Position numbers and translations under genes: made by a program. Of a DNA stretch of 64,000 nt, positions 13,591-28,748 are shown one piece after another (the first letter of the stretch is position 1; the number at the start of each line of letters is the position of its first letter). The DNA is from Rhodospirillum centenum SW (GTDB lineage Bacteria; Pseudomonadota; Alphaproteobacteria; Azospirillales; Azospirillaceae): positions 1,322,501-1,386,500 of the forward strand of contig NC_011420.2 in the NCBI RefSeq assembly GCF_000016185.1, written 5' to 3'. The notes below the pieces were generated by a model, which did not search any database, was not told the origin of the DNA, and saw nothing but the letters and a program-made list of their open reading frames with translations.

Positions 13591-13634
13591 TGGCGTCCCC
13601 AACGGGATTCGAACCCGTGTTACCAACGTGAAAG
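13591..13634. repeat. attL: left 44-bp direct repeat (tRNA-Glu 3' fragment)
   Basis: 44 nt identical to 28705-28748, corresponding to the 3' end of the minus-strand tRNA-Glu gene (T-arm, acceptor and encoded CCA). Identity stops at 13634, where the left copy continues TTTTGC and the right copy GCTGG. This is the displaced original 3' end left behind after integration. Confidence 0.93.
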
Positions 13635-13740
13635 TTTTGCATGTCCGGGTTTTCTAGACTATCATGGACGCCCATGGACAACAGCAACACATTGATTTCC
13701 TTAGATGTCGTCCGGAGCCGTCCATAGGTGTCCAAACGCG

Positions 13741-13773
13741 ATATTGGGGAAATATTGGGGAAGAGTTGGGGGA
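13741..13773 (+). repeat. Direct repeats near the left end (candidate integrase arm sites)
   Basis: Three 11-bp units in tandem: ATATTGGGGAA at 13741-13751 and 13752-13762, then GAGTTGGGGGA at 13763-13773. The same units recur near the right end at 28647-28668 in the same orientation. This placement on both sides of the core fits arm-type integrase binding sites. Confidence 0.55.
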
Positions 13774-13778
13774 GCCCG

Positions 13779-15107
13779 ATGGCCCGGACAGTCGCGGACA
13801 CGAACCTGAGCACCAAGGCGAAGCGCGCCAAGCTGGCGCCTCGGCCGAAACCCTACTGGCGGGAAATCGACCGCGGGCGGCATGTCGGGTACTACCGGGG
13901 TTCCGCCAGCGGTAGCTGGATCGCCCGCCGCTTCCTCGGAGGCGGGAAGTACCAGGAACGGCGGCTGGGGATGGCCGACGACATCCGGGACGCGGACGGG
14001 ATCGAGGTACTGTCCTTCGAGCAGGCGCAGGCGGCGGCACGCATATGGTTCGAGGACTGCGCCCGGGCCGATCTGGAGGCGGAGCGGCGGCGGGAGGCGG
14101 AAGCGGCGGGCGAACCCGTCCACCAGGGCGGTCCCTGGACGGTGCGCGACGCCGTGGCCTCCTATCTTGCCACGCTTCAGAACGCCCGGACCCGGAAGGA
14201 GTTCGACACGGAGGCGAAGGCACATATCCTCCCGGCGCTGGGGGGTATCGACCTGTCCAAGCTGACCAGCGGCCGGATCACGAAATGGCTTGAGGGGATC
14301 GCCAACAGCCCGCCCCGGCTGCGGACGAAGACGAAAGCGGCGGAGCGGCGGACGGCGGACGTGGACATGTCGGACCCGGACGTGATCCGCCGTCGCCGCC
14401 ACACTGCGAACCACCAACTGAAGATCCTGAAGGCGGCCCTGAACCACGCTTATCGGGGCAAGCGGGTGGAGACCGATTCTGCATGGGCAACCGTGCGGCC
14501 CTTCAAAGGGGTCTCGGAAGCACGGGTGCGATGGCTGGCGCAGGACGAAGCCGTGCGGCTGGTGAACGCCTCGGCGCCGGACCTTCGTGCCATGGTGCGC
14601 GGCGCGCTGCTGACTGGTTGTCGGTATGAAGAACTGGCGCGGCTGCGGGTGCAGGAGATCGACCTGTTGAACGGCTCCGTCTATGTCCGGCTGTCCAAGA
14701 GCGGGAAACCGCGGCATGTCGTGCTGACGGAGGAAGGGGTTGCGTTCTTCCGGGACCACACGGCCGGGCGGACGGCGGACGATCTGGTGTTCACCAGGGC
14801 GAACGGGGAGCCGTGGGGGAAGTCCCACCAGCACCGACCGATCAAGGACGCCTGCGCCGCGGCGAAGATCAAGCCGGCTATTTCATTCCACATCCTGCGG
14901 CACACTCACGCTTCCTGGCTGGCGCAGCGGGGCGTCTCCATGCAGGTGATCGCCGCGCAACTCGGGCACTCTGACACGCGAATCACTGAACGGCACTACG
15001 CCCACCTGTCGCCGTCTCACCATGCCGCCGCGGTGCGCGCAGCCCTGCCCAATCTCGGGCTGGCGCCGGCATCCAACGTCGCCGCGCTAAGAACGGGTCG
15101 CGGATGA
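13779..15107 (+). CDS. int: Tyrosine recombinase (site-specific integrase)
   Basis: 442 residues. The N-terminal part carries an AP2-like/arm-binding region, the middle a SAM-like core-binding domain (about 125-230), and the C-terminal half the catalytic domain. Active-site residues are visible: Arg in TGCRYEEL, Lys in SKSGKPR, His-x-x-Arg in HILRHTHASW, the LGHSD motif and the nucleophile Tyr in ERHYAHLS. It would recombine the 44-bp tRNA-Glu core. ATG 13779 has GGGGGAG 5 nt upstream and is preferred over GTG 13728, which lies across the repeated 11-bp units. Confidence 0.95.
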   Translation: MARTVADTNLSTKAKRAKLAPRPKPYWREIDRGRHVGYYRGSASGSWIARRFLGGGKYQERRLGMADDIRDADGIEVLSFEQAQAAARIWFEDCARADLEAERRREAEAAGEPVHQGGPWTVRDAVASYLATLQNARTRKEFDTEAKAHILPALGGIDLSKLTSGRITKWLEGIANSPPRLRTKTKAAERRTADVDMSDPDVIRRRRHTANHQLKILKAALNHAYRGKRVETDSAWATVRPFKGVSEARVRWLAQDEAVRLVNASAPDLRAMVRGALLTGCRYEELARLRVQEIDLLNGSVYVRLSKSGKPRHVVLTEEGVAFFRDHTAGRTADDLVFTRANGEPWGKSHQHRPIKDACAAAKIKPAISFHILRHTHASWLAQRGVSMQVIAAQLGHSDTRITERHYAHLSPSHHAAAVRAALPNLGLAPASNVAALRTGRG

Positions 15108-15163
15108 CAAGCGCCGCGGCTGGGGATCGGCTGTAATGTCGTGAAGGTGGAGCGGAGGACGGC

Positions 15164-15985
15164 ATGAACAGTACGCACGACAAAGAATATATTGGCGACA
15201 TTCTGAAAATGCTGGGCGATCCGCCAACCGATGACAGCCAGTTTCTGATTGAGTGTGCCATAGAGAGTCTGTCCGATACGTCGGATTTTCGCGTTGGATA
15301 TATCGCAGAGCAGATTTCCCGTCTGGAAAATGCGGCAGCCGAATTGGCAAAATTGTTCTACGAGTGCGCACAATTACTTTCATCGCTGCCAAGTAACCCG
15401 AAATTCGACCCCGAGATATCTGATCTTGAGCTTCTTACCTTCGATGCCGAGCCCCACATCGTTCGCCTTTTCGCCCTATCCGGGGCGGCCGGGCGGGTCC
15501 GCGGCGCGTTCGTGAACTCCTTCGGGAGCGGTGACCCGGACAGGCCCGACCCCGGCGGGCGACATGGGATCAAGGCGCGCGCGTGGGGCGCACCACGGCA
15601 GCGGTTCGTTGAAGATCTGGCGCGCGTCTGGACCGACAACGGAAAAGAGATTTCGGGCCATTCAGAGGGCGCATTCGCAGTATTCGTGCGAACGGTTTAT
15701 GGATTGGCGACGGGGGATTTTGATCCGGCAGGCATTGAGCACGACATAAAGCGAATCGCTCCCGTCGTTCGAGACGAAAGTCATGTCAGAAAACTTGTAA
15801 GCGAGCGGTATATACATCTCACGTTGCAGGCTTCCCAGCTTGAGTCTGAAGGTTGCCGCAGCGAAGCAGAATTTCTTCTCTCTCGCGTGGACCGCTTGCA
15901 GCGATGGTTCAACGATCCGAACTTCCCGGCCCGCCGGCCGTCGCCGGCCGCTCTTCCTGGAAGGGCAGATACTAGGCTCGATTGA
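15164..15985 (+). CDS. Hypothetical protein, possible island cargo
   Basis: 273 residues of mostly helical, charged character (for example EQISRLENAAAELAKLF). There is no signal peptide, membrane helix or motif I recognise. A central Gly/Pro/Asp-rich stretch (residues about 122-140) separates two helical halves, and the tail is basic. Base composition in the first 300 nt is visibly more AT-rich than its neighbours, which suggests separate acquisition. It sits between the integrase and the AlpA-like gene, a position where phage satellites often carry variable cargo such as anti-phage genes. Function unknown. Confidence 0.7.
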   Translation: MNSTHDKEYIGDILKMLGDPPTDDSQFLIECAIESLSDTSDFRVGYIAEQISRLENAAAELAKLFYECAQLLSSLPSNPKFDPEISDLELLTFDAEPHIVRLFALSGAAGRVRGAFVNSFGSGDPDRPDPGGRHGIKARAWGAPRQRFVEDLARVWTDNGKEISGHSEGAFAVFVRTVYGLATGDFDPAGIEHDIKRIAPVVRDESHVRKLVSERYIHLTLQASQLESEGCRSEAEFLLSRVDRLQRWFNDPNFPARRPSPAALPGRADTRLD

Positions 15986-16023
15986 GGCCGGGTAGTTGCC
16001 CTGACATTCAGGGCGGCCCCTTG

Positions 16024-16067
16024 CACCGTGGTCCCACGTCCACAGAGAGACATGGAGAACCACGGTG
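16024..16067. promoter_or_regulatory. Inverted repeat covering the AlpA-like gene start
   Basis: CACCGTGGT at 16024-16032 and ACCACGGTG at 16059-16067 form a perfect 9-bp inverted repeat with a 26-nt spacer. The right arm ends on the GTG start codon and the spacer holds the GGAG ribosome site. As RNA it could hide the start; as DNA it could be an operator. Confidence 0.55.
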
Positions 16068-16268
16068 ACAACCTCTCCGTCCGATGCTCGCGACCGTTTC
16101 GGCTGGCCTGTTAACGACTGGGCCGCCGCGGTCGGGATTTCTCGCGCTTCCGCATACAATCTGATGACCGAAGGGAAAATCCAGTCGGTCAAGTATCTCT
16201 CGAAGCGCCTCATCATCACCCATCCCCGCGAGTTCCTCGCCTCACTGGCGCGCGGCGAGGCCGCGTGA
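16065..16268 (+). CDS. AlpA-like helix-turn-helix regulator / excisionase
   Basis: 67 residues with a MerR/AlpA-type winged helix-turn-helix: WPVNDWAAAVGISRASAYNLMTEGKIQSVKYLSKRLI. The helix pair and the basic wing match small AlpA/Xis proteins, which in P4-like satellites and PICIs switch on the element or direct excision. GTG start with GGAG 9 nt upstream. Confidence 0.75.
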   Translation: MTTSPSDARDRFGWPVNDWAAAVGISRASAYNLMTEGKIQSVKYLSKRLIITHPREFLASLARGEAA

Positions 16269-16325
16269 TGGCCGGCCCGCGGCCTGTGCCGGGAGCGCCG
16301 GGCGGTGGACCGCCGGAGGCGCGCT

Positions 16326-16556
16326 ATGACCGGTGACGTGATCCCTCTCCACCCGCGGCCCGCCCCGGCCCGCCGGGTTCCCGCCCCGCCGCCCGACGCT
16401 GCGCGGCGGGCGCTGGCCGCGATCATCGCCGAGGCCGCAACGGCGGCGATGGAGGCCGGCGCCCGCGGGGAGAAGCTGGCCGCGGCGGACTTCGCCGCGC
16501 TGGCCGTGGTCGCCCGGAACGGCCTGCTGACCCTGAACGACGGGGGGGCGCTATGA
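16326..16556 (+). CDS. Hypothetical small protein
   Basis: 76 residues. A Pro/Arg-rich N-terminus (VIPLHPRPAPARRVPAP) leads into an alanine-rich helical C-terminal half (AAIIAEAATAAMEAG). No family recognised. Its stop overlaps the next ATG by 4 nt, and a 22-codon frame (16268-16336) overlaps both this gene and the AlpA-like gene, so the run is tightly packed. ATG 16326 is used; GTG 16305 would add seven mostly basic residues. Confidence 0.6.
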   Translation: MTGDVIPLHPRPAPARRVPAPPPDAARRALAAIIAEAATAAMEAGARGEKLAAADFAALAVVARNGLLTLNDGGAL

Positions 16557-17131
16557 CCGACGATCTGCGCCACCTGTTCCACGCCCTGGCCGTCAGTACG
16601 CCCTTCTCCACGGGCGAGCGGCTGGCCGCCGCCGGGGTTCGGCGCCCGAAAGCGTTCAGCTTTCCGGCGCTCTACGCCGCCGCCGACGGGCACGTTGGGC
16701 CTGAAGGACTCTTCACCCCGGCCGGCGGCCCCGGCCCCTGGATCTTGGTGCCGGCGGGCCTGCGCGGGCTGGGCGAGTACGCCGATTGGGAGCAGATCGA
16801 CGATCTGGTCGCCTTCAGGCTGGAGGCGCCGGGCCGGTGGCACCCCGTCCGCCGCGACGCCCATCTGCTGGGCGAAGACGCGCTGGAGGCGGCCCGGTTC
16901 GACGGCCGGCCGCTCCATCTGCATAGCTCCCCGTTGGGGTGGCTGGCGGCGGGCGGCACGGGCGTCTGCATCGTGGACTGGTCGCTGAACCCCACCGCCG
17001 TGTTCTGTGGCGTCCCGCGCCTGACCTGCGACGCGCCGGCGCTGGAGACGCGGCTACGGCAGCGGGTCCGCGAAACGTGGCCTGCCCCCCGGATCGAGAC
17101 GGCCGCGCCGTCGCGGCGCAAGGTGGCGTAA
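16553..17131 (+). CDS. Hypothetical protein preceding the RepA-like ATPase
   Basis: 192 residues, aromatic and Gly/Pro-rich in the middle, with GPWILVPAGLRGLGEYADWEQIDDLVAFRLEAPGRW-type segments and a basic tail (PSRRKVA). No catalytic motif I know is evident, and in particular no primase DxD or toprim signature. Its stop overlaps the ATPase start by 1 nt. Such coupling suggests a partner in island replication, for example a primase-like or loading factor, but this is inference only. Confidence 0.65.
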   Translation: MTDDLRHLFHALAVSTPFSTGERLAAAGVRRPKAFSFPALYAAADGHVGPEGLFTPAGGPGPWILVPAGLRGLGEYADWEQIDDLVAFRLEAPGRWHPVRRDAHLLGEDALEAARFDGRPLHLHSSPLGWLAAGGTGVCIVDWSLNPTAVFCGVPRLTCDAPALETRLRQRVRETWPAPRIETAAPSRRKVA

Positions 17132-18285
17132 TGCGGACCGCGTGGAACGAGGCGCCCGGCGGCACCACTGCCAACCCGCGCGGATACCTTGAACCCTTGC
17201 CCACCACCCCGGCATCCGCATGGGCGGGCAAGCCTATCCCGCCGCGCGAGTTCATCGCCGAGCCGTGGGTGCCCGTTGACGAAGTTACGATCCTGATGGG
17301 CAAGCCCGGCAAGGGTAAGACCACCATCGCGGAACAGCTCCTGGTCGCGGTCGCCGCCGGGCGCTCCTGGCTGGGCTCCCCGACGGTGCGGGCGCCCGTG
17401 CTGGCGGTGCTGTGCGAGGACCATCCCGAGGAAACTCAGCGCCGTCTGGCGGCGATTGCCGAGGCCGAGGGGCTGTCTCTGGCCGACCTGGATGACCTGC
17501 ACCTCCTGCATCCGTTCGACGATGGAGAGGACGACACGACCTTGATGACCTTCGACCGCAATGCGGACGCGGGAGCTTCGACCCTGTTCTATGCCCGCGT
17601 CCTTCAGCGCGCGCGGCAGGTCGGAGCCCGGTTGATCGTGCTGGATTCTCTGGCCGACGTGTTCGGCGGCGACGAGAATAAGAAGCGCGACGCTATCCAG
17701 TTCATGCTGCTGCTGCGCCGCATGGCGTGCGCAATCCACGGTGCCGTGATCGTGATCGGCCACCCCAGCCGGGGCGCCCTGTCCGTCGGCTCCTACGAAT
17801 CGGGTTCCGTCGCATGGTCGGGCAAGTCCCGCTCGTTCCTGGCGTTCCGCGACCCCGATCCCAGCGGCGACGGAGAACCGGACCTGGATGCCCGCGTGCT
17901 GGAGATCGTGAAAGGCAACCACGCGCCACCGGGAACGATGCTGTCGGTCCGCTGGCAGGCGGGCGTCTTCGTGCCGGATCGGCCCGGCGGAGGCGACTTC
18001 GTGGACCGGCTGGACCGGGACGCGGCGGCACGGGCGGCAGAAGAGGTTGTTCTCTCCGCGCTGGACAAGCTGACCATGCAGGGGCGGGTGGCCAGCGCCA
18101 ACAAGGGGACGGCGAACTACCTCCCCAAGCTGATCCGGGACGCTCGCCTTTCCGGTGGGTTCAGTGATCGGGCGCTCTCCACCGCCATGAACGACCTGTT
18201 CAACGCCGGAAAGATCAAGATCGGCGTCGCGGGCCGCTACGCGAACCGGACGCCGCGGCAGGGGATCGTGCGGGCCGACAGGTAG
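17131..18285 (+). CDS. RepA-like AAA/RecA-fold replicative ATPase
   Basis: 384 residues. A Walker A motif GKPGKGKTT (near residue 60), the CEDHPEETQRRL segment and Walker B LIVLDSLADVFGG, followed by a Ser/Gln sensor region (VIVIGHPSRG), place it in the AAA_25/RepA group of RecA-fold hexameric helicases. These proteins unwind DNA at plasmid and phage origins. The C-terminal about 90 residues look like a winged helix. The iteron array begins 22 nt after its stop, consistent with a Rep-origin module. Phages of this type use the same protein before their packaging genes. Confidence 0.85.
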   Translation: MRTAWNEAPGGTTANPRGYLEPLPTTPASAWAGKPIPPREFIAEPWVPVDEVTILMGKPGKGKTTIAEQLLVAVAAGRSWLGSPTVRAPVLAVLCEDHPEETQRRLAAIAEAEGLSLADLDDLHLLHPFDDGEDDTTLMTFDRNADAGASTLFYARVLQRARQVGARLIVLDSLADVFGGDENKKRDAIQFMLLLRRMACAIHGAVIVIGHPSRGALSVGSYESGSVAWSGKSRSFLAFRDPDPSGDGEPDLDARVLEIVKGNHAPPGTMLSVRWQAGVFVPDRPGGGDFVDRLDRDAAARAAEEVVLSALDKLTMQGRVASANKGTANYLPKLIRDARLSGGFSDRALSTAMNDLFNAGKIKIGVAGRYANRTPRQGIVRADR

Positions 18286-18306
18286 CCCGCACCACCCCGG
18301 CCGGGC

Positions 18307-18636: not shown

Positions 18637-18930
18637 ATGACCCCCGACGAGATCGCCGCCGCGCTGGCCGCCCGCACCGCCCCCGCCAACGCCACGCCGG
18701 AGCAACGGGCAGCGCTCCACCGTGAAGCCCTGCGCGCCGTCCGCGCTGCCGGCAGCCGCGCCGTGCCGGCCTGGGCGCTGGTCAGGGACCTGCCCGACGC
18801 GGAGCTGGTGGCTGCCTTCGCCGCGCAGGCCGAGGCGCTGAAGCCGCCGCCGCCCACCGAGGCGCAGAAGGAGGCGCTGCGCAATTGGGCGCGCCGGCGG
18901 AAGAGCTATTCCCCCTACCTCAAGAGGTGA
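18637..18930 (+). CDS. Hypothetical small protein
   Basis: 97 residues, alanine-rich and helical (EIAAALAARTAP, ELVAAFAAQAEAL), with a basic C-terminus (RNWARRRKSYSPYLKR) that could bind nucleic acid. No family recognised. It lies between the candidate origin and the packaging genes. Confidence 0.6.
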   Translation: MTPDEIAAALAARTAPANATPEQRAALHREALRAVRAAGSRAVPAWALVRDLPDAELVAAFAAQAEALKPPPPTEAQKEALRNWARRRKSYSPYLKR

Positions 18931-19259
18931 TGCCCCCGCCCGCGCTTCGCCCGGCGGCCCGTGGATGCATTCTCGGGTGTGGGGCCGCTACCACCCCGGC
19001 CGCCGGCGCTTCACCCCCACCACGGGCCGCCGCAGCGCCCGCAATCGGGCATGGCGTCGCACGGGTCGCGCGGTGATGGTGACGCCGCCGCCCCGGCGGG
19101 CATCAACCCCCGCCGCCGGGCGCAGGGGCCGCCGGCTGCCCCGCCCCGCGGCCTCGGGCCTACCACTTCGGGCGGGTCCTTCCGGGGAGGGTGGCGTGGG
19201 GGTGGTTCGGACCCCATGACCGCCCTAGACATGATCCCGCACAGGGGGTTCCGCTTCCT
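18931..19259. other. Gene-poor region upstream of terminase, possible cos
   Basis: About 330 nt with only arginine-rich frames that lack ribosome sites. In lambda-type phages the cos site lies directly upstream of the small terminase gene. This is therefore the logical place for the packaging site, but I see no decisive cos signature. A 6-bp inverted pair GGGTCC/GGACCC spans 19174-19214. Confidence 0.35.
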
Positions 19260-19301: not shown

Positions 19302-19790
19302 ATGGCCACGCAACAGGAAGTCGGCAAGCATCTGGATTTAACGGACAGGTCCATCCGGGAGCTGCTGGACAAGGGCGTGCTCCCGAACGCCCGCCGCGGG
19401 GCGCTGGACCTGGACGCCTGCCGGCTCGCCTACATTCGGCACCTGCGCGAAGTCGCCGCCGGCCGCGCCCTGGGACCGGGCGGTGACGATCTGACCGCCG
19501 AAAGGGCGCGGCTGGCCCGCGAACAGGCAGACCATTATGCCTTGCGGAACGCGGCCCTGCGACTGGATTTGCTCCCCCGCGCCGACATCACCCGCGCCGT
19601 GACCGCGGCCTTTCAGATCGTGCGCGACCGCTTCACCGCCCTGCCGGCGCGGCTGTCCGGCCCGCTGGCCCGACTGACCGATCCGGCCGAGGTGCGCCGC
19701 CGGCTGGACGACGCCGTGCAGGCCGTGCTGGTGGAGCTGGCCGAGGAACGGGTGATCGCCACCGCCGAGGACAGGGCCGATGCCGCTTGA
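19302..19790 (+). CDS. Terminase small subunit, Nu1-like
   Basis: 162 residues. The N-terminal winged helix-turn-helix (QQEVGKHLDLTDRSIRELLDKGVLP) matches gpNu1-type DNA-recognition domains, and the rest is helical with a coiled-coil-like middle (ERARLAREQADHYALRN). Nu1 proteins bind cos and assemble with the large subunit. Its stop overlaps the large terminase start by 11 nt, as in lambda-type phages. Confidence 0.85.
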   Translation: MATQQEVGKHLDLTDRSIRELLDKGVLPNARRGALDLDACRLAYIRHLREVAAGRALGPGGDDLTAERARLAREQADHYALRNAALRLDLLPRADITRAVTAAFQIVRDRFTALPARLSGPLARLTDPAEVRRRLDDAVQAVLVELAEERVIATAEDRADAA

Positions 19791-21699
19791 TCTGCCCGTG
19801 TCCCCGCTGGTGGCCGAGGCCGCGTCCGGGTGGTTCGCGGCCCTGCGCCCGCCGCCGCGGCTGTCACTGGCCGAGTGGGCGGAGCAGCACGCCCGGCTCT
19901 ACGATGGATCGGTGTTCCGGCCCTACCCGTACCAGCGGGACATTCTGGACGCGATGACCGATCCGGCGGTTCACCAGGTCACGGTGATGAAATCGGCCCG
20001 CGTCGGGTACACGCAGATGCTGTCCGCAGCGCTGGGCTACTTCATCGCGCAGCGCCCGTCCAAGATCATGGTTGTGCAGCCCACAACCGAGGATGGCGAG
20101 GACTATTCCAAGGACACAGTCGACCCGCTGCGGGACTGGCCGGTGCTGGCCGGGCTGCTGTCGGAGGCGGGGGCAAAGCAGAAGGGCGACACGATCAAGC
20201 GCAAGGCGTTCCCCGGCGGCTCGTTGAGGATCGCGGGCGCGAACAGCCCCCGCGCCTTCCGCAGGATCGATCTGGACGTGCTGCTGTTCGACGAAGTAGA
20301 CGGCTATCCGCCCGCCGCCGGGCGGGAAGGCGACCAGATCGCGCTGGGCCTGAAGAGGCTGACACAATCCCTCCGCCCGCTGGCCGTGCTGGGCTCCACG
20401 CCGCTGCTGGACGGGGAGTCGAAGATCGCCGCCGCCTTCGCCGCCGGCACGATGGAGCGCTACCATGTGCCGTGCCCCCATTGCGGGGAGTTTCAGGCGC
20501 TCCGCTGGGGGGACGGGACCGGCGCCGGGATGCGCTGGTCGGACGGCGATCCCGAAACAGCGCACTATGTCTGTGCCAACGGCTGCCCCATCGACGAGAG
20601 TCACAAGCTGGACATGTTGGAGCGCGGCCGGTGGGTGGCCGAGGCGCCGTTCCGGGGGCACCGCTCCTTTCACATCTGGAGCGCCTACTGCCCGTTGCCG
20701 GGGGCGGCGTGGCCCAAGCTGGTGGCCGAGTTCCTGGCCGCCCGCAAGGATCGGGAGCGCCTTCAGGTCTTCACGAACACGGTGCTGGGCGAAACCTGGG
20801 TTGACCGGGGCGAAGCGCCGGACTGGCAGCGGCTCTATGACCGCCGGGAGGTGTGGGAGCCGGGCACGGTCCCGGCCGGCGGGCTGTTCCTGACGGCGGG
20901 TGCCGACGTGCAGCGGGATCGCATCGAGGTGTCGGTGTGGGCCTGGGGCCGCGGCCGGGAAAGTTGGCTCGTGGACCATCGCGTGCTGATGGGGGACCCG
21001 TTCGACGCCGCCGTGTGGCGCAACCTGTCCGCCCTGCTGGCGGAGACCTTCCCGCACGCGGCCGGTCCATCCCTGCCGATCACCATGGTGGCAATCGACG
21101 CGGGCGACGGCGTGACGATGGAGGCGGTCAAGGTGTGGGTCCGCACCGCCGGCCCCCGCGTCATGGCCGTGAAGGGTTCCTCGCAGGCGCTGGCGCCGAT
21201 CCTCGGCCAGCCGTCCGCCAGCGACGTGAACCACCGCGGCAAGAAGATCGCCAACGGCGTCAAGCTGTGGCCCGTGGGGAGCGCCGCCGCGAAGTCGGAG
21301 TTCTACGGGTGCCTGCGCCTGCCCCGGCCGGGTGACGGGGAGCCGTGTCCTGCGGGTTATGTCCACATTCCCATGCACATAGGCGAGGAAACCTGCAAGC
21401 AGTTGGTGGCGGAACACCGCGTCACCCGCGGCGGCAAGGGCCGCGCCCGCGTCACGGCCTGGGAAAAGCTGCGCGACAGGAACGAAGCGCTGGACTGCCG
21501 AGTCTATGCCCGCGCCGCCGCCGCCCGCCAAGGGCTGGACCGGCTGGACGATGACGCTTGGTCGGAGCTGGAGAGGACCCTGGGTGTCTGCACCGCGCCG
21601 GCCCCGTCTCCCGCACCGTCCCCGCCGGGAGGCCCACCGCCACCGCCCGCCGCCCCGTTTGGCCCGATCCGCTCGCGGTACATTCACGGGCGGAACTGA
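19780..21699 (+). CDS. Terminase large subunit, GpA family
   Basis: 639 residues, the size of lambda gpA. The packaging ATPase has a Walker A-like segment VTVMKSARVGYTQ (about residue 70) and Walker B LLFDEVDGYP. A zinc-finger-like CPHCGEF...CANGC segment follows. The nuclease domain has acidic residues in ADVQRDRIEVS and AIDAGDGVTME. It cuts at cos and drives DNA into the procapsid. The Pro-rich C-terminal tail probably contacts the portal. It appears intact. Confidence 0.93.
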   Translation: MPLDLPVSPLVAEAASGWFAALRPPPRLSLAEWAEQHARLYDGSVFRPYPYQRDILDAMTDPAVHQVTVMKSARVGYTQMLSAALGYFIAQRPSKIMVVQPTTEDGEDYSKDTVDPLRDWPVLAGLLSEAGAKQKGDTIKRKAFPGGSLRIAGANSPRAFRRIDLDVLLFDEVDGYPPAAGREGDQIALGLKRLTQSLRPLAVLGSTPLLDGESKIAAAFAAGTMERYHVPCPHCGEFQALRWGDGTGAGMRWSDGDPETAHYVCANGCPIDESHKLDMLERGRWVAEAPFRGHRSFHIWSAYCPLPGAAWPKLVAEFLAARKDRERLQVFTNTVLGETWVDRGEAPDWQRLYDRREVWEPGTVPAGGLFLTAGADVQRDRIEVSVWAWGRGRESWLVDHRVLMGDPFDAAVWRNLSALLAETFPHAAGPSLPITMVAIDAGDGVTMEAVKVWVRTAGPRVMAVKGSSQALAPILGQPSASDVNHRGKKIANGVKLWPVGSAAAKSEFYGCLRLPRPGDGEPCPAGYVHIPMHIGEETCKQLVAEHRVTRGGKGRARVTAWEKLRDRNEALDCRVYARAAAARQGLDRLDDDAWSELERTLGVCTAPAPSPAPSPPGGPPPPPAAPFGPIRSRYIHGRN

Positions 21700-21760: not shown

Positions 21761-23245
21761 ATGCTCACCCTGTTTCGACGATACTTCGGTGGAACACAGC
21801 GCCGCGCGCTTGAGGCGGGCGGTGCGGGCCTGCGCTGGCCGGCGGGGGCGCGGGTCTCCAACCTGAATACCGACATCCTCGGTGCCGGACGGACGATCCG
21901 GGAGAGGGCCGCCTACGCCGCGCGGAACAACGCGACCGCCGCGGCGGCCGTGTCGGCCCTGGTCGCGAACATCGTCGGGCCGGGCATCGTGCCGTCGCCG
22001 CAGCACCCGGACCCGGCGGAGCGCGCGCGGCTGGCCGAGATGTTCGCGCGCTGGACGGATCGGGCCGACTTCGACGCCGGCACCGACTTCTACGGGTTGC
22101 AGGCGCTGGCCGTGCGGCAGTGGATCGAGACGGGCGAGAGCTTCGCCCACCTCCTGCTGGACGACGATGCCGGGGCGGACGTGCCCCTGCGCCTGCGCCT
22201 GCTGCATCCATCCCAGGTCCCGACCGACTGGCCCATGGCGCTGGTCAACAACAGGGTGCGGGGCGGGATCGAGCATGACGAGATGGGCCGCCGGCTGGCC
22301 TATCTGGCGTTGCCCTTCCGGCCCGAAGATCCCTTCACGGCCATGGCGAAGGCCGGGTGGTCGCCGGTGCGGCTCCCGGCCGAGGACGTGGTTCACCTGT
22401 TCGAGGCCTTGGAGCCGGGACAGGTTCGCGGGCTGTCCTGGTTCGCCCCGGTCCTGTTGGCGCTGTCGGAGTTGGACCAGCTTCAGGATGCGGCGCTGGT
22501 CCGGGCGAAGCTCGCCAACCTGATCTGTGCGGCCCTTGTGGACCCCAACGGCGACGCGGGCGGACTGCCCGGCACGGTGTCGAACGGCGTGCTGACCGCT
22601 GGGCTTGAGCCCGGGACCATCGTCCCGCTGCGCCCCGGAACCTCGTTGGAGTTCTTCGACCCGCGCGAGTCGCAGCACTACGGCCCGTTCGTGAAGGAGC
22701 ACCTCCGCGCCATCGCCGCCGGCCTCGGCCTGCCCTACGAGGTGCTCACCGGCGACCTGTCGAGTGTGAACTATTCCAGCATCCGCGCCGGGCTGGTCGA
22801 GTTCAGGAAGCGCCTGGAACACTGGCAGCACAACGTCGTGGTCTTCAAGTTCTGCCGCCCCGTGTGGGACCGCTTCATCCGCGCCGCCGTCCTGTCCGGG
22901 CGGATCGACGCCCGCGCCTATGCCGGCGACCCGGCCGCCTACCATGATGTCGAGTGGCTGCCGCCGCGGCAGGAATGGGTTGATCCCGCCAAGGACCTTG
23001 CGGCCGAGGTCGGCGCCATCGGGGCCGGCCTGATGAGCAAGACGCAGGCGCTGGCCCGGCGCGGCGTGGACATCGCGCGAGTCCGGGCCGAGATCGCCGC
23101 CGAGCGTGCGGCCGATGCCGCCGCCGGCCTGATCTTCACAACGTCCACGCCCACCACGGCGCCCGCCGCCCCCAACGCGCCCACCGCCGCGCCCGCTGCC
23201 ACCGCCGCGCCGGCGCAGGACCCGGAGTCTGAAGATGAGCCTTGA
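21761..23245 (+). CDS. Lambda-type phage portal protein
   Basis: 494 residues of the lambda gpB portal family: RIRERAAYAARNN-like N-terminus, the core QWIETGESFAHLLLDDD, and the conserved segment GLPYEVLTGDLSSVNYSSIRAGLVEF typical of this family. It forms the dodecameric ring through which DNA enters the head. The Ala/Pro-rich C-terminal tail overlaps the protease-capsid gene by 11 nt. Intact. Confidence 0.93.
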   Translation: MLTLFRRYFGGTQRRALEAGGAGLRWPAGARVSNLNTDILGAGRTIRERAAYAARNNATAAAAVSALVANIVGPGIVPSPQHPDPAERARLAEMFARWTDRADFDAGTDFYGLQALAVRQWIETGESFAHLLLDDDAGADVPLRLRLLHPSQVPTDWPMALVNNRVRGGIEHDEMGRRLAYLALPFRPEDPFTAMAKAGWSPVRLPAEDVVHLFEALEPGQVRGLSWFAPVLLALSELDQLQDAALVRAKLANLICAALVDPNGDAGGLPGTVSNGVLTAGLEPGTIVPLRPGTSLEFFDPRESQHYGPFVKEHLRAIAAGLGLPYEVLTGDLSSVNYSSIRAGLVEFRKRLEHWQHNVVVFKFCRPVWDRFIRAAVLSGRIDARAYAGDPAAYHDVEWLPPRQEWVDPAKDLAAEVGAIGAGLMSKTQALARRGVDIARVRAEIAAERAADAAAGLIFTTSTPTTAPAAPNAPTAAPAATAAPAQDPESEDEP

Positions 23246-25037
23246 TATTCTCACCCGCGCCGCCGGGCGCCCGTCCACCCTCGACCGTGCCGCCCGCACC
23301 GTGGAAGCCGTGGCGCTCTCCGGCCCGGCCCCGGCTGTCCGCCCCGGCCCCGCCCCGGACGGCAGCGCCGGACCCTGGGTGGAAGAGTTGGACGCGGCCG
23401 GCGCGGACCTGTCGGCCCTGATCGGCGGCCCGGTCCTGAAGGATCATCACAACGTCACCGATGCCGCCGTAGGCACGGTGGCCGGGGCGCGGCGGGAGGG
23501 AAGCACGATCATCGCCGGCCTGCGCTTCGACCCGTCGGAGGAAGCGGAGGCGGTGCTCGCCAAGATCGAGGCCGGTTCGATCCGGGGCGTGTCCCTCGGC
23601 TACGTGGTGACCACATGGCGCCCGGCCGGCACGCGGAACGGACGGCCGGTCTTCGTCGCCGCCGCCTGGAAACCCGTCGAGATTTCGTTGACCCCGCTCC
23701 CGGTGGATTCGGGAGCCCTGATCAGGAGTACATCCGCCATGACCGCCACCACCGAGAGCACCACCGATCCGGTGGTGAGCACCCGGACCGAGACGAACCG
23801 GACCATCCGCAGCATCGCCACCGCCGCCGGCCTGCCCGCCGGCTGGGCCGACGAGCTGATCGACCGCGACGCCGACGCCGACGAGGCCCGCCGGCTGGCC
23901 TTCGAGGCGATGGCGAAGCGCGCCCGGCCGGTGGACAATCGCGCGCCGGCCGGCAGCGTGACCGTGGGCACGTCCTACGAAGATCCCACGGTGATCCGCC
24001 GCGCCATGGCCGATGCCCTGGCCCACCGGCTCGCGCCCGCCCACGTCAAGCTGGAGGGTCAGGCCGTCCAGTATCGCGGCCACGGCCCGATGGCGCTGCT
24101 GGGCCAGCTTCTGGCGGCCCGCGGCGAGCGGGTGAACCCCTGGGACCGGGATGCGCTCCTGACCCGCGCCATCGGTGCCCATGGCACCTCCGACTTCCCC
24201 GCCCTGCTGGCCGACGCCGCGAACAAGGCGCTGGAGGCGCAGTACGAGGCCGCGGCCCCGACCTATCGCATGATTGCCGCGCCGCGGTCGTTCAACGACT
24301 TCAAGCCGCACAAGTTTCTCCGGGTGGGCGACTTCCCGACGTTCAGGAACTTGGCGGAAGGCGCCGAGGTCCAGTACGGCTCCATCTCCGAGAACCGCGA
24401 GACGGTGACGCCCGGCGAGTTCGCGACGGGCATCGCCATCGGGCGCCGGGCGCTGGTCAACGACGACCTGGGTGCGCTGGCCGACTTCTCGTCGCTGATC
24501 GCGATCCGCGCCGCGCAGTTCGAGAACGCCACCGTCTACGGGCTGCTGGCCGGCGACGGGCCGGTCCTGAGCGACGGCAAGGCGCTGTTCCACGCGGACC
24601 ATGGCAACAAGGCCGCCAGCGGCTCCGCCATCGCGGACGGGATCGACGCCGCCGTGCAGGCCCTGCGCGCCATGACCGGGCTGGACGGCGCCAAGCTGAA
24701 TCTGCGGCCGCGCTACCTGGTTGTCGGTCCCGCGCGGGAGGCCGCGGCCCGGCGCATCCTGGCGCAGATCAATCCGACCAAGGCGGGCGACGTGAACCCC
24801 TGGGCCGCGCAGTTCGAGCTTGTGGTGGATGCCGAGATCACGGGGAACCGCTGGTTCCTGGTGGCGGAACCGGCGCAGGCCCCGACGCTGGTCTACGGCT
24901 ACGTCAACGGCGCCGCCGGGCCGCAGATTCTCACCGAAACCGACTTCGACACGCAGGCCGTGAAGGTCCGTGCCGGGCTGGACTTCGCCGCCGGGGTGAT
25001 CGACTTCCGCGGCGTCTACAGCAACGCCGGAGCCTGA
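23235..25037 (+). CDS. Prohead protease fused to major capsid protein
   Basis: 600 residues in two parts. Residues about 1-165 are an HK97-type prohead serine protease (VLKDHHN with the catalytic His, GSIRGVSLGY with the Ser). Residues about 235-600 are an HK97-fold major capsid domain of the Mu gpT-like group (RMIAAPRSFNDFKPHK, NDDLGALADFS, LFHADHGN). Joining them in one chain ties protease and shell stoichiometry, with self-cleavage expected near the linker around residues 165-235. The frame is uninterrupted. The fusion occurs in some tailed phages. Confidence 0.9.
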   Translation: MSLDILTRAAGRPSTLDRAARTVEAVALSGPAPAVRPGPAPDGSAGPWVEELDAAGADLSALIGGPVLKDHHNVTDAAVGTVAGARREGSTIIAGLRFDPSEEAEAVLAKIEAGSIRGVSLGYVVTTWRPAGTRNGRPVFVAAAWKPVEISLTPLPVDSGALIRSTSAMTATTESTTDPVVSTRTETNRTIRSIATAAGLPAGWADELIDRDADADEARRLAFEAMAKRARPVDNRAPAGSVTVGTSYEDPTVIRRAMADALAHRLAPAHVKLEGQAVQYRGHGPMALLGQLLAARGERVNPWDRDALLTRAIGAHGTSDFPALLADAANKALEAQYEAAAPTYRMIAAPRSFNDFKPHKFLRVGDFPTFRNLAEGAEVQYGSISENRETVTPGEFATGIAIGRRALVNDDLGALADFSSLIAIRAAQFENATVYGLLAGDGPVLSDGKALFHADHGNKAASGSAIADGIDAAVQALRAMTGLDGAKLNLRPRYLVVGPAREAAARRILAQINPTKAGDVNPWAAQFELVVDAEITGNRWFLVAEPAQAPTLVYGYVNGAAGPQILTETDFDTQAVKVRAGLDFAAGVIDFRGVYSNAGA

Positions 25038-25039
25038 CC

Positions 25040-25270
25040 GTGGCGACGCTGGACGAGCTGATGGGGTGGCGGGACGCGCTTCAGCGCGCCCGCTACTCCG
25101 GCGTCCGCTCCGTCGAGTTCAATACCGGGGGCGGTGGCGGCCGGAGCGTCACCTACCGGAGCGACGCCGAGCTGCGCGCGGCGCTGGCCGAAGTGGAACG
25201 CCAGATCGCCGCGGCGACCGGTGCCGGCCCCGTCACCATGATCCGAACCACATCCTGCAAGGGAACCTGA
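25040..25270 (+). CDS. gpW-like head-tail connector protein
   Basis: 76 residues, starting at GTG 25040, 2 nt after the capsid stop. The sequence MATLDELMGWRDALQRARYSG, then RSVTYRSDAELRAALAEVERQIAA, matches the compact two-helix gpW fold (lambda gpW is 68 residues), which plugs the portal and accepts the tail. In lambda this gene sits between terminase and portal; here it follows the capsid. Confidence 0.8.
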   Translation: MATLDELMGWRDALQRARYSGVRSVEFNTGGGGGRSVTYRSDAELRAALAEVERQIAAATGAGPVTMIRTTSCKGT

Positions 25271-25273: not shown

Positions 25274-25618
25274 ATGAAGACGTTCGTTCAATCCGGCGAT
25301 CTGGTCGAGGTGACTGCTCCGGCCGGCGGTGTCGCCAGCGGTGCCGGCGTGCTGGTGGGCGCCCTGTTCGGTGTCGCTGCCGAGACCGCCCCCGCCGGTG
25401 CAGCCGTCGTGCTCGCGACGCGGGGCGTGTTCGATCTGCCCAAGGCCACCGCTGCCGTCTTCACGGCCGGCGGCCCCGTCTCCTGGGATGCGGTCAACGC
25501 CCGCTGCGCCGCGCCGGGCACGGGCCTCTATCCCGTCGGCGTCGCGGTCACCCCCGCCGGCAACGGCGCCGGCACGGTGCGGGTGCGGCTCGACGGCGTG
25601 GCGACGGCGGCGGCGTAG
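25274..25618 (+). CDS. DUF2190 protein, probable head decoration
   Basis: 114 residues of Gly/Ala/Val-rich beta structure (SGDLVEVTAPAGGVASGAGVLVGALFGVA). DUF2190 proteins lie beside capsid genes in many phages and are thought to be capsid cement or stabilising proteins like gpD. It starts 3 nt after the gpW-like gene. It is the last identifiable virion gene of the element. Confidence 0.82.
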   Translation: MKTFVQSGDLVEVTAPAGGVASGAGVLVGALFGVAAETAPAGAAVVLATRGVFDLPKATAAVFTAGGPVSWDAVNARCAAPGTGLYPVGVAVTPAGNGAGTVRVRLDGVATAAA

Positions 25619-25716: not shown

Positions 25717-25968
25717 GTGCGTGTCCACGGCTTCGGTCGCGGCCGGGTCCGCTTCCCCCGACGGCCGTTCAGGCACCGCCCGCCGCGCATGTGGCCCTGG
25801 GATCGCGGCTCCCACGACTACCTGTCCGCGGCGCTGATGCTGGCCCGCTGTGCCGCGGATGGCGACCCCGACCGTTTCGGGCGGTCGCTGGCGGTGGCGG
25901 ACTACCCGCCCACCCTGGTGCCCCGGCCCGACGGCTTCGGGCGCGTCCCGGTTTCCCTCACCGGATGA
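25717..25968 (+). CDS. Hypothetical small protein with strong ribosome site
   Basis: 83 residues from GTG 25717, preceded by AGGAGGGGGAGG at 25703-25714. The N-terminal half is very basic (RVRFPRRPFRHRPPR), then WPWDRGSHDYLSAALMLARCAADGDPDRF. No family recognised. It directly follows the DUF2190 gene and could be a head-completion or DNA-binding protein. The start codon choice rests on the ribosome site. Confidence 0.5.
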   Translation: MRVHGFGRGRVRFPRRPFRHRPPRMWPWDRGSHDYLSAALMLARCAADGDPDRFGRSLAVADYPPTLVPRPDGFGRVPVSLTG

Positions 25969-26668
25969 GGCGGACGGCGCGGCGCTGACCCCGGAAATCT
26001 GGAGGCCGGGCCGCGACCCGTGGCTGGGCCGCACCGTCGTGGTGAACCCGCTCCTGGTCGCACGCCCGCGCTGGATCGCCGCGGCCATGCCGATGACCGC
26101 CGGGTTGCCCGACGACATCGCTGGGCGGATCGGGATCTTCAGGGCTGTCGTGGCGGTGGTCAGATGGGGTGGTGGGTAACCGTGATCGAGATGGTCACGG
26201 ATGGTGGGGGTTGCTCGGGGCGTAGCTCCGCCTTCCGAGGGCGAAGCTACGTTCGTCACGGACGGAGCCGGGCAGACGAGACGTAGCCGTGAGATGCGAC
26301 CTTGCTACAGGCGGCCGGGGTCACGCTGTCGGCCTTTATCGCTGCTCTCTGTGACGCTGGATCACCGCACCCTCTCACGGCAAGGCGGGGTCCATCCGGG
26401 GCGGGTTGTTCCGGAGCCCGGTCCTGATCCGCCGCAAGCCAACCACCAGGATGACCGACCGACGGACCTTGAGCGTCTGCCCGGCTCCGACAGAGGAAAC
26501 CCTGCTCCTGCTGCGGATGTTTGCCGACCCGTTCTGCCGGGCCTATTGGGCTATGTCGCATATCGATATACTGCACCACGGCCGATGGTCAAGATGGTGT
26601 GAGAACGAGACAAGAACCCTACAAGATGCCGGGGGTGAAGACCTGAAAGCAGCAACCCCGCCGGGCGT
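25969..26668. other. Degenerate region, probable deletion scar
   Basis: About 700 nt with no convincing gene. It holds a hairpin at 26221-26251 (CGTAGCT/AGCTACG ends). The 26406-26672 frame has atypical composition. The next gene is a ParB fragment lacking its N-terminus. If tail and lysis genes were lost by deletion, the junction would be here. Confidence 0.45.
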
Positions 26669-26950
26669 GTGATCGCCACGGCCCGCCTGTGGGAGATCGC
26701 GGAGAACCTGCACCGCGCCGAACTGACGGTGCAGGAGCGGGCAGAGCATATCGCGGAGTGGGTCAGGCTGACGGCTGATAAGGGGGCGCAAGTTGCGCCC
26801 CCTGGCGGCAGGCAACCTCACGACAAGGGCATCAAGGCGGCCGTCCGCGAACTCGGCATTGATCGCACCGAAGCACAGCGCGCCGTCAAGATCGCCGCCA
26901 TCTCCGACGAAGCGAAGCAGGCCGCACGGGACGCGGCCGTCACTTCCTGA
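26669..26950 (+). pseudogene. ParB-like protein, 5'-truncated
   Basis: 93 residues resembling the region just after the ParB/Srx nuclease-type domain of phage ParB proteins: LWEIAENLHRAELTVQERAEHIAEWV, followed by KGIKAAVRELGIDRTEAQRAVKIA, which looks like the KorB-type helix-turn-helix. The N-terminal ParB domain is missing. The frame upstream of GTG 26669 reads a few more compatible residues but no domain. Either a broken remnant or a short protein using an internal start. Its end overlaps the convergent 26940-27173 gene by 11 nt. Confidence 0.55.
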
Positions 26951-27173
26951 ACATCTCGGGCCGATCCAGGCCGAACCGCTGCTTCCCGTCCTTCGGAGCA
27001 CGCCACGGATCGCCGTATTCCCGCCGGCCGGGCGCCGCGTCTCCATCCTGGGTGACCCGCAGCACGATCCGCGCCCGGCGCCGGGCGGCCCGGTTCTCCG
27101 CCGCCTTGAACGGCTTGTCGCTGGGGGCGGTCGTGCTCCCGCAGAACGGATTGCGGCGCCGTGATCTGGACAT
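26940..27173 (-). CDS. Conserved small basic phage protein
   Basis: 77 residues, very basic in the middle (ENRAARRRARIVLR) with RRRNPFCGSTTAPSDKPFKAAENR at the start and GDPWRAPKDGKQR near the end. I recognise the general type from prophage regions but know no function. It is convergent with the ParB fragment and 27 nt upstream of the Xre repressor gene on the same strand. Confidence 0.65.
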   Translation of the reverse strand: MSRSRRRNPFCGSTTAPSDKPFKAAENRAARRRARIVLRVTQDGDAAPGRREYGDPWRAPKDGKQRFGLDRPEMFRK

Positions 27174-27199
27174 CGGGTTCCCCGTCTCCTGCGCGGCGC

Positions 27200-27430
27200 C
27201 TATGGCTTCTTCAGCCGCACGCCCGGCCCGCCGCCGTTCTCGGGGATGAGCTCGACGCCGGCCGATTCCAGGGCGGTGCGGATCGCGGCGATGGTGGACG
27301 GCTTCAACTCGTCCCCGCGTTCGAACCTCGAAATCGTCTGAGTGGACACCTTAGCCGCGACCGCCAAGTCTCGGACGCCGAGGTTCAGGGCAACGCGCGC
27401 CATGCGGCACTGGACAGGAAGCACGGTCAC
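27200..27430 (-). CDS. Xre-family repressor
   Basis: 76 residues. A Cro/CI-type helix-turn-helix fills most of the chain (LGVRDLAVAAKVSTQTISRFERGDELKPSTIAAIRTALESAGVELI). GTG 27430 gives the common PxQCRxAR N-terminus; Met10 is an alternative. The start codon lies inside a 17-bp palindrome, so it probably represses itself and the divergent rightward genes. A likely master switch of the element. Confidence 0.85.
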   Translation of the reverse strand: MTVLPVQCRMARVALNLGVRDLAVAAKVSTQTISRFERGDELKPSTIAAIRTALESAGVELIPENGGGPGVRLKKP

Positions 27431-27478
27431 AACCCTGTTGTGATTTCTCTTGACGGGGAAATGTTAACAGTGTTGTGA
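27427..27478. promoter_or_regulatory. Paired Xre operators in the divergent control region
   Basis: Operator 1 at 27427-27443 is TCACAAC-CCT-GTTGTGA, a perfect palindrome over the xre start. Operator 2 at 27462-27478 matches it at 12 of 17 positions with a full right half GTTGTGA. Centre-to-centre spacing is 35 nt. TTGACG at 27450-27455, between them, is a possible rightward -35. Confidence 0.65.
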
Positions 27479-27564
27479 TTGCCGGGCAAGAGAAACGACC
27501 GGACAGGGTGCTGCAACACCCGGCCCGGCCTCACCACAACCCGAGCTGATAGGAGCTGCGGACC

Positions 27565-27780
27565 ATGGCTGGTTCTCAGAATGCCACGACTTTGCCCGGC
27601 GCCACGACGAATCACGTTTCCGACAGCCACGAGGGGATCCTTGTGCTCCATGGGATCGCGTGCACGCTGACGGCGCTCGCCATCGCCACGGAGACAGGAT
27701 ACTCGGTGAATTACCACTCCCTGTACAACCTCGGCACTCAGATCGACGCGGTTATTGCATCTCTGACGGCGGAGGGCTGA
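27565..27780 (+). CDS. Hypothetical small protein
   Basis: 71 residues with a mildly hydrophobic middle (EGILVLHGIACTLTALAIATETG). No family recognised. AGGAG lies 9 nt upstream of the ATG. First gene of a rightward three-gene run divergent from xre and behind its operators, so likely early and repressor-controlled. Confidence 0.65.
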   Translation: MAGSQNATTLPGATTNHVSDSHEGILVLHGIACTLTALAIATETGYSVNYHSLYNLGTQIDAVIASLTAEG

Positions 27781-27782
27781 CC

Positions 27783-27974
27783 ATGGCGAGCAGACCGAAG
27801 TTCCCCTTGGATGAAGAGCTGAACGAACTGGCCAACCGCGCCGTCAAGGAGCTTCCCAAGAGCATGCTGCGGGCGTTGCTCCTTTACATCGAAATCCTTG
27901 CCGCTCCTGACGGAGCGGCCGCGGCCGTCATCGCGGAGAAGGCTGTCGCGAAGGTGAGGGGCCGCCATGGCTGA
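27783..27974 (+). CDS. Hypothetical small helical protein
   Basis: 63 residues, predicted helical (LDEELNELANRAVKELPKSMLRALLLYIEILAA), acidic at the start and basic at the end (KVRGRHG). No family recognised. It starts 2 nt after the previous stop and overlaps the next ATG by 8 nt. Confidence 0.6.
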   Translation: MASRPKFPLDEELNELANRAVKELPKSMLRALLLYIEILAAPDGAAAAVIAEKAVAKVRGRHG

Positions 27975-28134
27975 CGAGACGCCCCCGAACCCGCCCCGCC
28001 GGCCGATGTCGCCCGAAGAGGCAGAAGCAGTCGTCCAATCCGTCGCCACTGAACTGGTCAGGATCATCGCCCGGCAGGTCGCCCGCGAGCACCATGAAGC
28101 CGCGGTCAAGGCAAGGATGCGGGGCGGGGAATGA
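27967..28134 (+). CDS. Hypothetical small protein
   Basis: 55 residues starting MADETPPNPPRRPMS, then a helix (EEAEAVVQSVATELVRIIARQVAREHHEAAV). The start lies within the end of the previous gene. It continues the same small-gene run and ends 51 nt before the terminator hairpin. A 12-codon frame (28131-28169) overlaps its stop but is too short to judge. Confidence 0.55.
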   Translation: MADETPPNPPRRPMSPEEAEAVVQSVATELVRIIARQVAREHHEAAVKARMRGGE

Positions 28135-28184
28135 CGACACGCCGGGCGATCCGCACCCCCGCGGACTGACCCGCCCATCCCTTA

Positions 28185-28215
28185 AGCCCCGCCCGGTCCG
28201 CCGCGGCGGGGCTTT
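28185..28215 (+). terminator. Terminator of the rightward small-gene run
   Basis: AGCCCCGCC / GGCGGGGCT, a perfect 9-bp stem with an 11-nt loop, followed by TTCT. The T-run is short, but the hairpin is strong and placed right after the last gene. Confidence 0.7.
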
Positions 28216-28646
28216 CTACGTCTGCATGACCGCCGGGCGGAGCGGGGGGCGGGCTCGCTGCCGGATCAAACATGGGCCGCCAGTCCTGCCAGTCCTGCCC
28301 AAGATAGCGCCCGGTGGTCTCCATGCCGTTCCGGCCCGTCCAGTGGCCTCGGGATATGGTGAAGCGCGCTCCCTGCGCCTCCCCCTGATTCGCGCATCCT
28401 GGGCCGCACAGCGCGGGTGTCAGGCCATCGCCCTACGCCCGACGGATCGCCCCGCCCCTTCCTGATTGCTCCGATGCCTGCCCGTCTCGCGGCTGCCCGG
28501 CACGGGCGCTTCCTGCGCCCGCCGCCTCCACCGCCACCCGTTCGGCAGGGCATCGAGTGTGGAAGGGAACATGCGGGGTGCGGACATCTGAACGCACATG
28601 CGGAACGACCCTCCGTCCACATGCGTCTACCGCAATCCAGCCATGT
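28216..28646. other. Gene-free right end of the island
   Basis: About 430 nt before the right direct repeats. Frames on both strands are low-complexity (poly-Gly/Pro/Arg) and lack ribosome sites. Nothing I can name. Confidence 0.5.
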
Positions 28647-28668
28647 ATATTGGGGAAAAGTTGGGGAA
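28647..28668 (+). repeat. Direct repeats near the right end (candidate integrase arm sites)
   Basis: ATATTGGGGAA at 28647-28657 and AAGTTGGGGAA at 28658-28668, the same 11-bp units as at 13741-13773. They end 36 nt before attR. In the excised circle both groups would flank the core. Confidence 0.55.
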
Positions 28669-28704
28669 GCCGGAGCTTGGAAACCGCTAACCCCTTGAAA
28701 ACCT

Positions 28705-28748
28705 TGGCGTCCCCAACGGGATTCGAACCCGTGTTACCAACGTGAAAG
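28705..28748. repeat. attR: right 44-bp direct repeat
   Basis: Identical to 13591-13634. Here it forms the 3' part of the functional tRNA-Glu gene, so the island supplied a replacement 3' end when it integrated. Confidence 0.93.

Follow-up and report, generated by a model that had tools for sequence, protein, structure and literature searches.

A phage head without a detectable tail: a probable capsid-forming satellite in a tRNA-Glu gene of Rhodospirillum centenum SW

Introduction

How might a chromosomal island that encodes a phage head and packaging machinery, and in which no tail gene is detected, pass from cell to cell? This question is raised by an element of approximately 15.1 kb in the alphaproteobacterium Rhodospirillum centenum SW. 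The stretch analysed, hereafter the window, comprises 64,000 nucleotides (bases 1322501-1386500 of the complete 4,355,543-base chromosome, NC_011420.2), and the element occupies positions 13591-28748 of it. Known here from sequence alone, it is most probably an integrated capsid-forming, tail-borrowing phage satellite, because it combines an intact-looking integrase, perfect attachment (att) repeats, an open head gene set, no detectable tail or lysis genes and relatives with the same layout.

Capsid-making satellites have been reported, in the cited portions of the sources, from Enterobacteriaceae and their relatives, Vibrio, several Gram-positives and Streptomyces (PMC10803314, PMC13230959, PMC10690885). 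Capsid-forming phage-inducible chromosomal islands (cf-PICIs) are described there as integrated islands that carry their own capsid, protease, portal, adaptors, terminases and HNH protein and need helper tails (PMC10690885, PMC13230959); they average 14 kb, and the primary host list, as cited, includes no Alphaproteobacteria (PMC10803314). A search of the open-licence PMC literature found no report of capsid-making satellites in this class.

Integration site, packaging genes and head genes

The element is flanked by 44-nt direct repeats that are 100% identical, the right copy of which overlaps the 3' end of a tRNA-Glu gene. In the 4.36-Mb genome there are exactly two copies of a 34-nt core of the repeat and none of its backwards control; the remaining direct-repeat families between 12500 and 30000 are shorter and imperfect. 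The features that define the element, in window positions, are as follows.

13591..13634: att repeat, left copy (44 bp, 100% identity to 28705-28748)
13728..15107, + strand: tyrosine integrase (start at 13728 or 13779; PF00589 9e-31, phrog_1 3e-60)
19302..19790, + strand: terminase small subunit TerS, Nu1-like (phrog_57 4e-26; 80% identical to that of locus L182)
19780..21699, + strand: terminase large subunit TerL, lambda GpA type (PF20454 1e-93, PF05876 1e-64, phrog_15 4e-232)
21761..23245, + strand: portal, lambda family (PF05136 6e-91; 60% identical to that of locus L209)
23235..25037, + strand: prohead protease/major capsid fusion (phrog_4523 4e-150, PF25209 1e-43)
25040..25270, + strand: gpW-like head-tail adaptor (phrog_2545 6e-19; no Pfam match)
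25274..25618, + strand: head decoration (cement) protein (PF09956 2e-26, phrog_122)
28705..28748: att repeat, right copy, overlapping the tRNA 3' end
28705..28780, - strand: tRNA-Glu(ttc), the integration site (ARAGORN)

The reading frames of the integrase and of the head set are open and uninterrupted. The integrase retains the contexts of its presumably catalytic residues, namely R (CRYEE), K (SGKPRH), HxxR (HILRH), H (LGHSD) and Y (RHYAH), and both the ATPase and the nuclease domain of GpA are matched in TerL. The Pfam matches of the capsid protein are PF25209 and PF10124; 120 phage records match it, all at less than 60% identity, and it is 100% identical to the capsid of IMG/VR record 643348571.

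No tail or lysis family was found in a PHROGs scan of the 29 open reading frames (ORFs) of the island. A tblastn search with 43 proteins, mostly of the tail and neck and only two of lysis, likewise gave no match in the island, and no tail remnant was found in the gaps by tblastn. The right-hand 3 kb (25618-28705) hold short family-less ORFs, a weak ParB-like ORF and a helix-turn-helix (HTH) repressor.

These results bear out most of what a sequence-only reading of the locus had claimed: perfect 44-bp att repeats in tRNA-Glu, an intact integrase with all catalytic residues, a RepA-like ATPase (AAA_25, E 4e-31), an uninterrupted packaging and head set (TerS, GpA, portal, protease-capsid fusion, gpW-like protein and DUF2190 protein, each with PHROGs or Pfam matches), and no tail, baseplate or lysis gene. 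Its AlpA-like regulator stands in part; a small HTH ORF lies at that place, and the AlpA label is weak because the sole match, to HTH_17, is sub-threshold.

Closest relatives of the head genes

Loci for comparison (L numbers; genomes, G numbers) were collected by capsid similarity in named genomes and in IMG/VR, whose contigs carry no host name, and their genes were called with a model trained on head genes and leftover long ORFs. The closest complete relative, L209, lies on plasmid AZO_p2 of Azospirillum lipoferum 4B. It measures 15.2 kb between 49-bp repeats at 4285 and 19436, sits in tRNA-Met, and leaves 990 bp from the cement gene to the tRNA. Its identity to the window element is 60% for the portal, 56% for the capsid and 57% each for gpW and cement, and only 30% for TerL. 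A second island of the same strain, L210 on plasmid AZO_p1, ends at a tRNA-Ser after one closure-like gene, and its left att was not found. The third relative, L040, is truncated inside TerL and shares its head genes with the window element, L209 and L210. None of the tube, tape-measure and lysis proteins of the 43-protein set has a match in these three loci. In L210 and L040 there is one further gene, encoding a closure-like protein with a partial match to a distal-tail family over approximately 80 residues (phrog_1302 1e-8, closure families 2e-7 and weaker; the scan used the L099 copy, to which that of L210 is identical). The search for related islands with the same gene order and no tail, proposed as a check in the sequence-only reading, has thus returned L209, L210 and the truncated L040.

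In a portal-plus-capsid tree of 37 elements, with supports computed from unrooted splits, the window element, L209, L210 and L040 form one group with support 100. Eight tailed-phage entries, including Rhodobacter phage RcKai and a siphoprophage resident in the R. centenum chromosome, split off with support 100.

A widespread group in Alphaproteobacteria

The same design recurs in a clade designated R, which contains 74 of 106 capsids with support 1.0; the R set amounts to 91 loci, duplicates included, after 17 were added by gene order. As labelled, its members come mainly from Rhodobacterales and also from Magnetospirillum, Zavarzinia and Pararhizobium; other labels are Oceanobacillus (L077) and a Halothiobacillus metagenome-assembled genome (L088). 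Of 387 genomes sampled evenly across the class, that of the window included, 20 match an R capsid at E <=1e-50, a count that includes tailed relatives. In a typical R element a regulator, a small DNA-binding protein and a primase precede TerS and TerL; then come cargo, portal, capsid, gpW, cement, more cargo and finally the tRNA. A tRNA-Met att core (<=4 mismatches) lies downstream of the head genes in 55 of the 91 loci, within 3 kb in 54 of these. Repeats of 47 and 48 nt in tRNA-Met bound two complete members of approximately 18.2 and 17.4 kb; those of a third, on a Paracoccus plasmid, are 47 nt long, and its cargo includes annotated methyltransferases and an HNH endonuclease.

TerL and portal are 2,172-7,584 nt apart (median 3,507) in all 61 R loci that have both genes. 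The cargo between them varies among elements and is rich in restriction-modification genes (e.g., L058, L091 and L211). Among 80 cargo ORFs, the 25 commonest of 417 PADLOC families are headed by mad2 (12 members), followed by type II methyltransferases (up to 7) and by type I methyltransferases and specificity subunits (5 each). The 25 commonest of 64 Pfam families include N6_Mtase (8), Eco57I (7) and ResIII (6), with EcoRI-, EcoRII-, XamI- and BsuBI/PstI-type endonucleases as singles.

When the 43-protein tail set was compared with 132 sequences, duplicates and source phages included, 103 had no match. Within R, a match was confined to L152, where it is chaperone-like, on the other strand and upstream of the portal. 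PHROGs scanning of 95 of 195 representative downstream ORFs gave no family named for tail or lysis among the 25 commonest of 70, with tblastn covering the rest partly.

Four viral contigs (L123, L157, L166 and L140) run from the cement gene into the regulator/primase end, most of them with no integrase between, as circular, tandem or episomal forms would; no terminal repeat of >=15 nt was found in them.

A partly tailed relative at the same site and the origin of the head-only form

A survey of the host's family returned a capsid match in 26 of 82 genomes, from which 20 stretches were fetched and 9 of these scanned for tRNA genes. The only tRNA-Glu-sited locus among the 9 is L182 (positions 319-19397), a 19-kb element in tRNA-Glu(ctc) with the same orientation as the window element and flanking repeats of 71 nt that are 99% identical. 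Its identity to the window element is 38% for the integrase, 80% for TerS, 82% for TerL, 38% for the portal and 50% for the capsid. After its cement gene there follow, in order, a 200-aa family-less protein, a tape measure (phrog_24, 5e-24), a match to a terminase-labelled family (6e-10), an unknown protein, a protein with distal tail (4e-7) and closure (9e-4) matches, and finally a tail terminator (phrog_179, 7e-12), with neither a tube nor a lysis family detected. As its refuting condition the sequence-only reading had named a close relative at this site whose cement gene is followed by a complete tail and lysis block; none was found among the loci surveyed, which brought up only this partial block.

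L182 and L183 both have their own tape measure and a tail terminator, with no tube or lysis family detected, as might a satellite that sets its own tail length.

It is possible, if doubtful, that the window element is a reduced satellite of the L182 type that lost its tape-measure, closure and terminator block in this copy. The shared site and orientation and the integrase, TerS and TerL identities point that way, and the extra block of L182 sits exactly between cement gene and att. The portal and capsid of the window element are, however, nearer to those of L209 and L210 (60% and 55-56%) than to those of L182 (38% and 50%), and this mosaicism makes the direction of change between the two elements uncertain. 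The window copy may be reduced, or it may be the older, head-only form.

A larger loss, in which a siphophage in this strain shed both tail and lysis genes and became a deletion-derived (cryptic) prophage, is improbable. This rival, raised in the sequence-only reading, draws on relatives of the lineage that have a tape measure or tube (L182, L183, L100 and L181) and on the gene-poor interval 25618-26669. The relatives nearest in their head genes speak against it: they belong to another genus and likewise lack matches to tube and tape measure, and att-bounded L209 has no room for a tail. Furthermore, the head genes and integrase are open, tblastn finds no tail remnant, and among the 9 loci scanned tRNA-Glu siting recurs only in L182, which itself has no tube or lysis match.

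Several observations nevertheless weigh against the satellite reading. L100 joins the window clade (support 90) and carries a tape measure; L181, in the same larger group, has both tube and tape measure; and among the nearest TerS/TerL relatives a tape measure is present in L182, L183 and L185 and absent from L187. The lineage therefore has tail genes, and tail loss in the window copy is possible. The interval 25618-26669 looks empty, with no convincing gene, and the AlpA-like call of 16065..16268 is sub-threshold (HTH_17 E 0.004). Among the R loci, 36 of 91 have no downstream att core, many through contig end. The gpW of the resident prophage is only 31% identical to that of the island, a value that neither proves nor excludes tail sharing.

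Comparison with known satellites and phages

The satellite reading invites comparison with the cf-PICIs, and several of the features by which these are recognised are present: a site-specific integrase with att sites; an own capsid, portal, protease, terminases and adaptor; and no tail or lysis genes, the modules that would mark a complete prophage. As to an AlpA/Stl-type regulator, the HTH_17 match lies below cut-off, and an HTH repressor is present. The layout is alike, and the size of 15.1 kb is close to the cf-PICI average of 14 kb (PMC10803314). The differences lie in gene families and host. Whereas cf-PICI capsids are described as PF05065 (PMC13230959), the window element has a PF25209 protease-capsid fusion, with PF05065 absent from its capsid matches at E 0.01, together with a lambda GpA-type terminase and a lambda-family portal. 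No HNH match was found among the window proteins scanned against Pfam and PHROGs, and the host is an alphaproteobacterium, outside the primary host list cited above (PMC10803314). The proposal of a cf-PICI-like satellite in the sequence-only reading thus holds for the layout and for the relatives of the same design; the term "cf-PICI-like" is preferred here to cf-PICI, since the element draws its packaging and head genes from other families and no HNH gene turned up.

Other systems share part of the design. The Streptomyces satellites MulchRoom and MiniFlayer also have their own packaging and capsid genes, but they are described with direct terminal repeats, virulent helpers and actinomycetotal hosts, and the cited portion of their report claims no homology with other satellites (PMC10690885). 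The Vibrio satellite-plasmids named cf-PISPs are tail-less and capsid-encoding; as described, they are episomal, with a PF05065 capsid, an HNH protein and no integrase, whereas the window element is chromosomal (PMC13230959). The Rhodobacter phage RcKai group and the resident prophage have a homologous head set, including the protease-capsid fusion, but they possess their own tails and lysis genes, and their capsid is approximately 34-35% identical to that of the island.

Candidate cos site, candidate helper and proposed mechanism

A candidate packaging site lies upstream of terS.

19173..19183, + strand: candidate cos element CGGGTCCTTCC, 129 nt before terS, invariant in a 5-element alignment

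Without mismatch, CGGGTCCTTCC occurs once in the 64 kb. With one mismatch allowed, 4 copies of the 11-mer were found in the window against 2.73 expected, no rarer than chance, and the candidate is therefore supported by position and conservation only. Of 82 loci, duplicates counted, 15 have a motif of the GGGTCCTTCC type no more than 1.3 kb upstream of TerL; neither the R-group loci tested nor the resident prophage has one. The block CGGGTCCTTCC may be part of cos, and because no such block precedes the terminase of the resident prophage, self-packaging of the island is probable.

As is usual for R elements, the island stops at a gpW-like adaptor and must therefore obtain a closure protein and tail from another source. 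The resident siphoprophage (C1:35001-75600; L008-L010) has head genes homologous to those of the island and encodes a tail terminator, a tape measure, a fibre-J-like protein and an amidase; its tape measure, at 66-68.6 kb, is the one match in a search of the genome with the phrog_24 profile. The phrog_93 profile had no match, a result that has no bearing on tails. To judge from its gene content, this prophage at 35-75 kb is a candidate helper.

The proposed mechanism is as follows. Growth of a helper siphophage would lead to excision of the island, which would replicate through its RepA-like ATPase. Its own terminase would cut the DNA at the cos site upstream of terS, and the DNA would be packaged into small heads of the island's own making. 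These heads, ending in the gpW-like adaptor, would take the closure protein and tail of the helper, and helper lysis would free chimeric particles. Excision, replication, packaging, transfer and helper mobilisation are all predictions from gene content.

It is highly improbable that the head genes serve another purpose, such as tail-less particles, packaging competition with the resident phage, or a domesticated transfer agent. The helper is itself only inferred, and the relatives include capsid islands with no adjacent terminase as well as a small replicon with a lone capsid gene, all of which such roles would accommodate. Retention of a head-tail adaptor gene argues otherwise, and the integrase, att sites and repressor are marks of a mobile element, not of a domesticated locus.

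Remaining genes of the element and other capsid-bearing islands

The genes to the left and right of the packaging and head module are listed below.

15164..15985, + strand: 273-aa ORF, no family (no match in Pfam, PHROGs or PADLOC)
16065..16268, + strand: AlpA-like small HTH protein, weak (HTH_17 E 0.004, below cut-off)
16326..16556, + strand: 76-aa ORF (gene call; no PADLOC family)
16553..17131, + strand: 192-aa ORF (no Pfam, PHROGs or PADLOC family)
17131..18285, + strand: RepA-like AAA ATPase (AAA_25 4e-31; longer frame from 16939)
18637..18930, + strand: 97-aa ORF (no Pfam, PHROGs or PADLOC family)
26669..26950, + strand: 93-aa ORF, weakly ParB-like (phrog_3264 3e-6 over 49 aa)
27200..27430, - strand: HTH repressor-like gene (HTH_3 1e-5), common to other islands
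27565..28134, + strand: three small ORFs (gene call; no PHROGs or PADLOC family)

Outside the head set, the best relatives of the window genes among the fetched loci sit in other islands. The AlpA-like protein is 39% identical over 49 aa to that of L099/L210, the RepA-like ATPase 44% over 359 aa to its counterpart in a capsid-bearing island of G009, and the 97-aa product 51% over 69 aa to that of the G009/L187 island. The HTH repressor is 81% identical to those of L188-L190 (capsid-bearing islands of G037), 58% to L099/L210 and 56% to L182, and has no match among 50,697 phage records at E 1e-5. The 273-aa ORF has no relative among the fetched loci searched, and a longer frame over the 76-aa ORF (16305-16553) belongs to no PHROGs or Pfam family. 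The RepA-like ATPase may act in replication; no iteron array was found near its gene, where only GC-rich 9-mers recur.

Further islands were encountered among the fetched loci. In G009 (C2, ~1.09-1.12 Mb; L186 and L187) and G037 (C2), integrase-bearing capsid islands apparently interrupt the portal gene of a prophage, which is left in pieces of 210 and 320 aa, and adjoin its cement gene, and G037 apparently has several island copies in a row. L181 (G039:C18:1651-20339), an 18.7-kb stretch flanked at tRNA-Gln by copies of a 20-nt repeat, carries head, neck, tube and tape-measure genes and gave no match to the tip proteins and lysis proteins queried. Three Xanthobacteraceae loci (L042, L044 and L045) are islands of approximately 7 kb with portal, capsid, gpW and integrase genes beside a tRNA and no adjacent large terminase; a TerL match lies 6-8 kb upstream in L042 and L045 and none in L044. 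L212, the 10,690-bp plasmid RHOAph of Rhodovastum atsumiense, encodes ParA, a toxin-antitoxin and a DUF3987 protein, with a protease-capsid fusion as its sole annotated head gene, and is a possible satellite-plasmid.

Significance for Alphaproteobacteria

Taken at the level of the class, the comparisons make it reasonably likely that Alphaproteobacteria harbour at least one large, unnamed satellite group with its own lambda-type heads, built from families independent of those of the cf-PICIs. This group would be graded, from a capsid gene with no adjacent terminase, through portal plus capsid and a full head, to a head with its own tape measure and a head with tube and tape measure; the window element would represent the head-only grade. 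One widespread branch would have, within its packaging operon, a hotspot of restriction-modification genes that separates terminase from portal.

If this is true, the different packaging and capsid set would suggest that the combination of an own head with a stolen tail has arisen more than once. With the grades that bear a tape measure, one could test which parts of the tail a satellite has to take from its helper. The group would span several alphaproteobacterial orders and haul restriction-modification systems, and would point to a little-recorded vehicle for defence genes.

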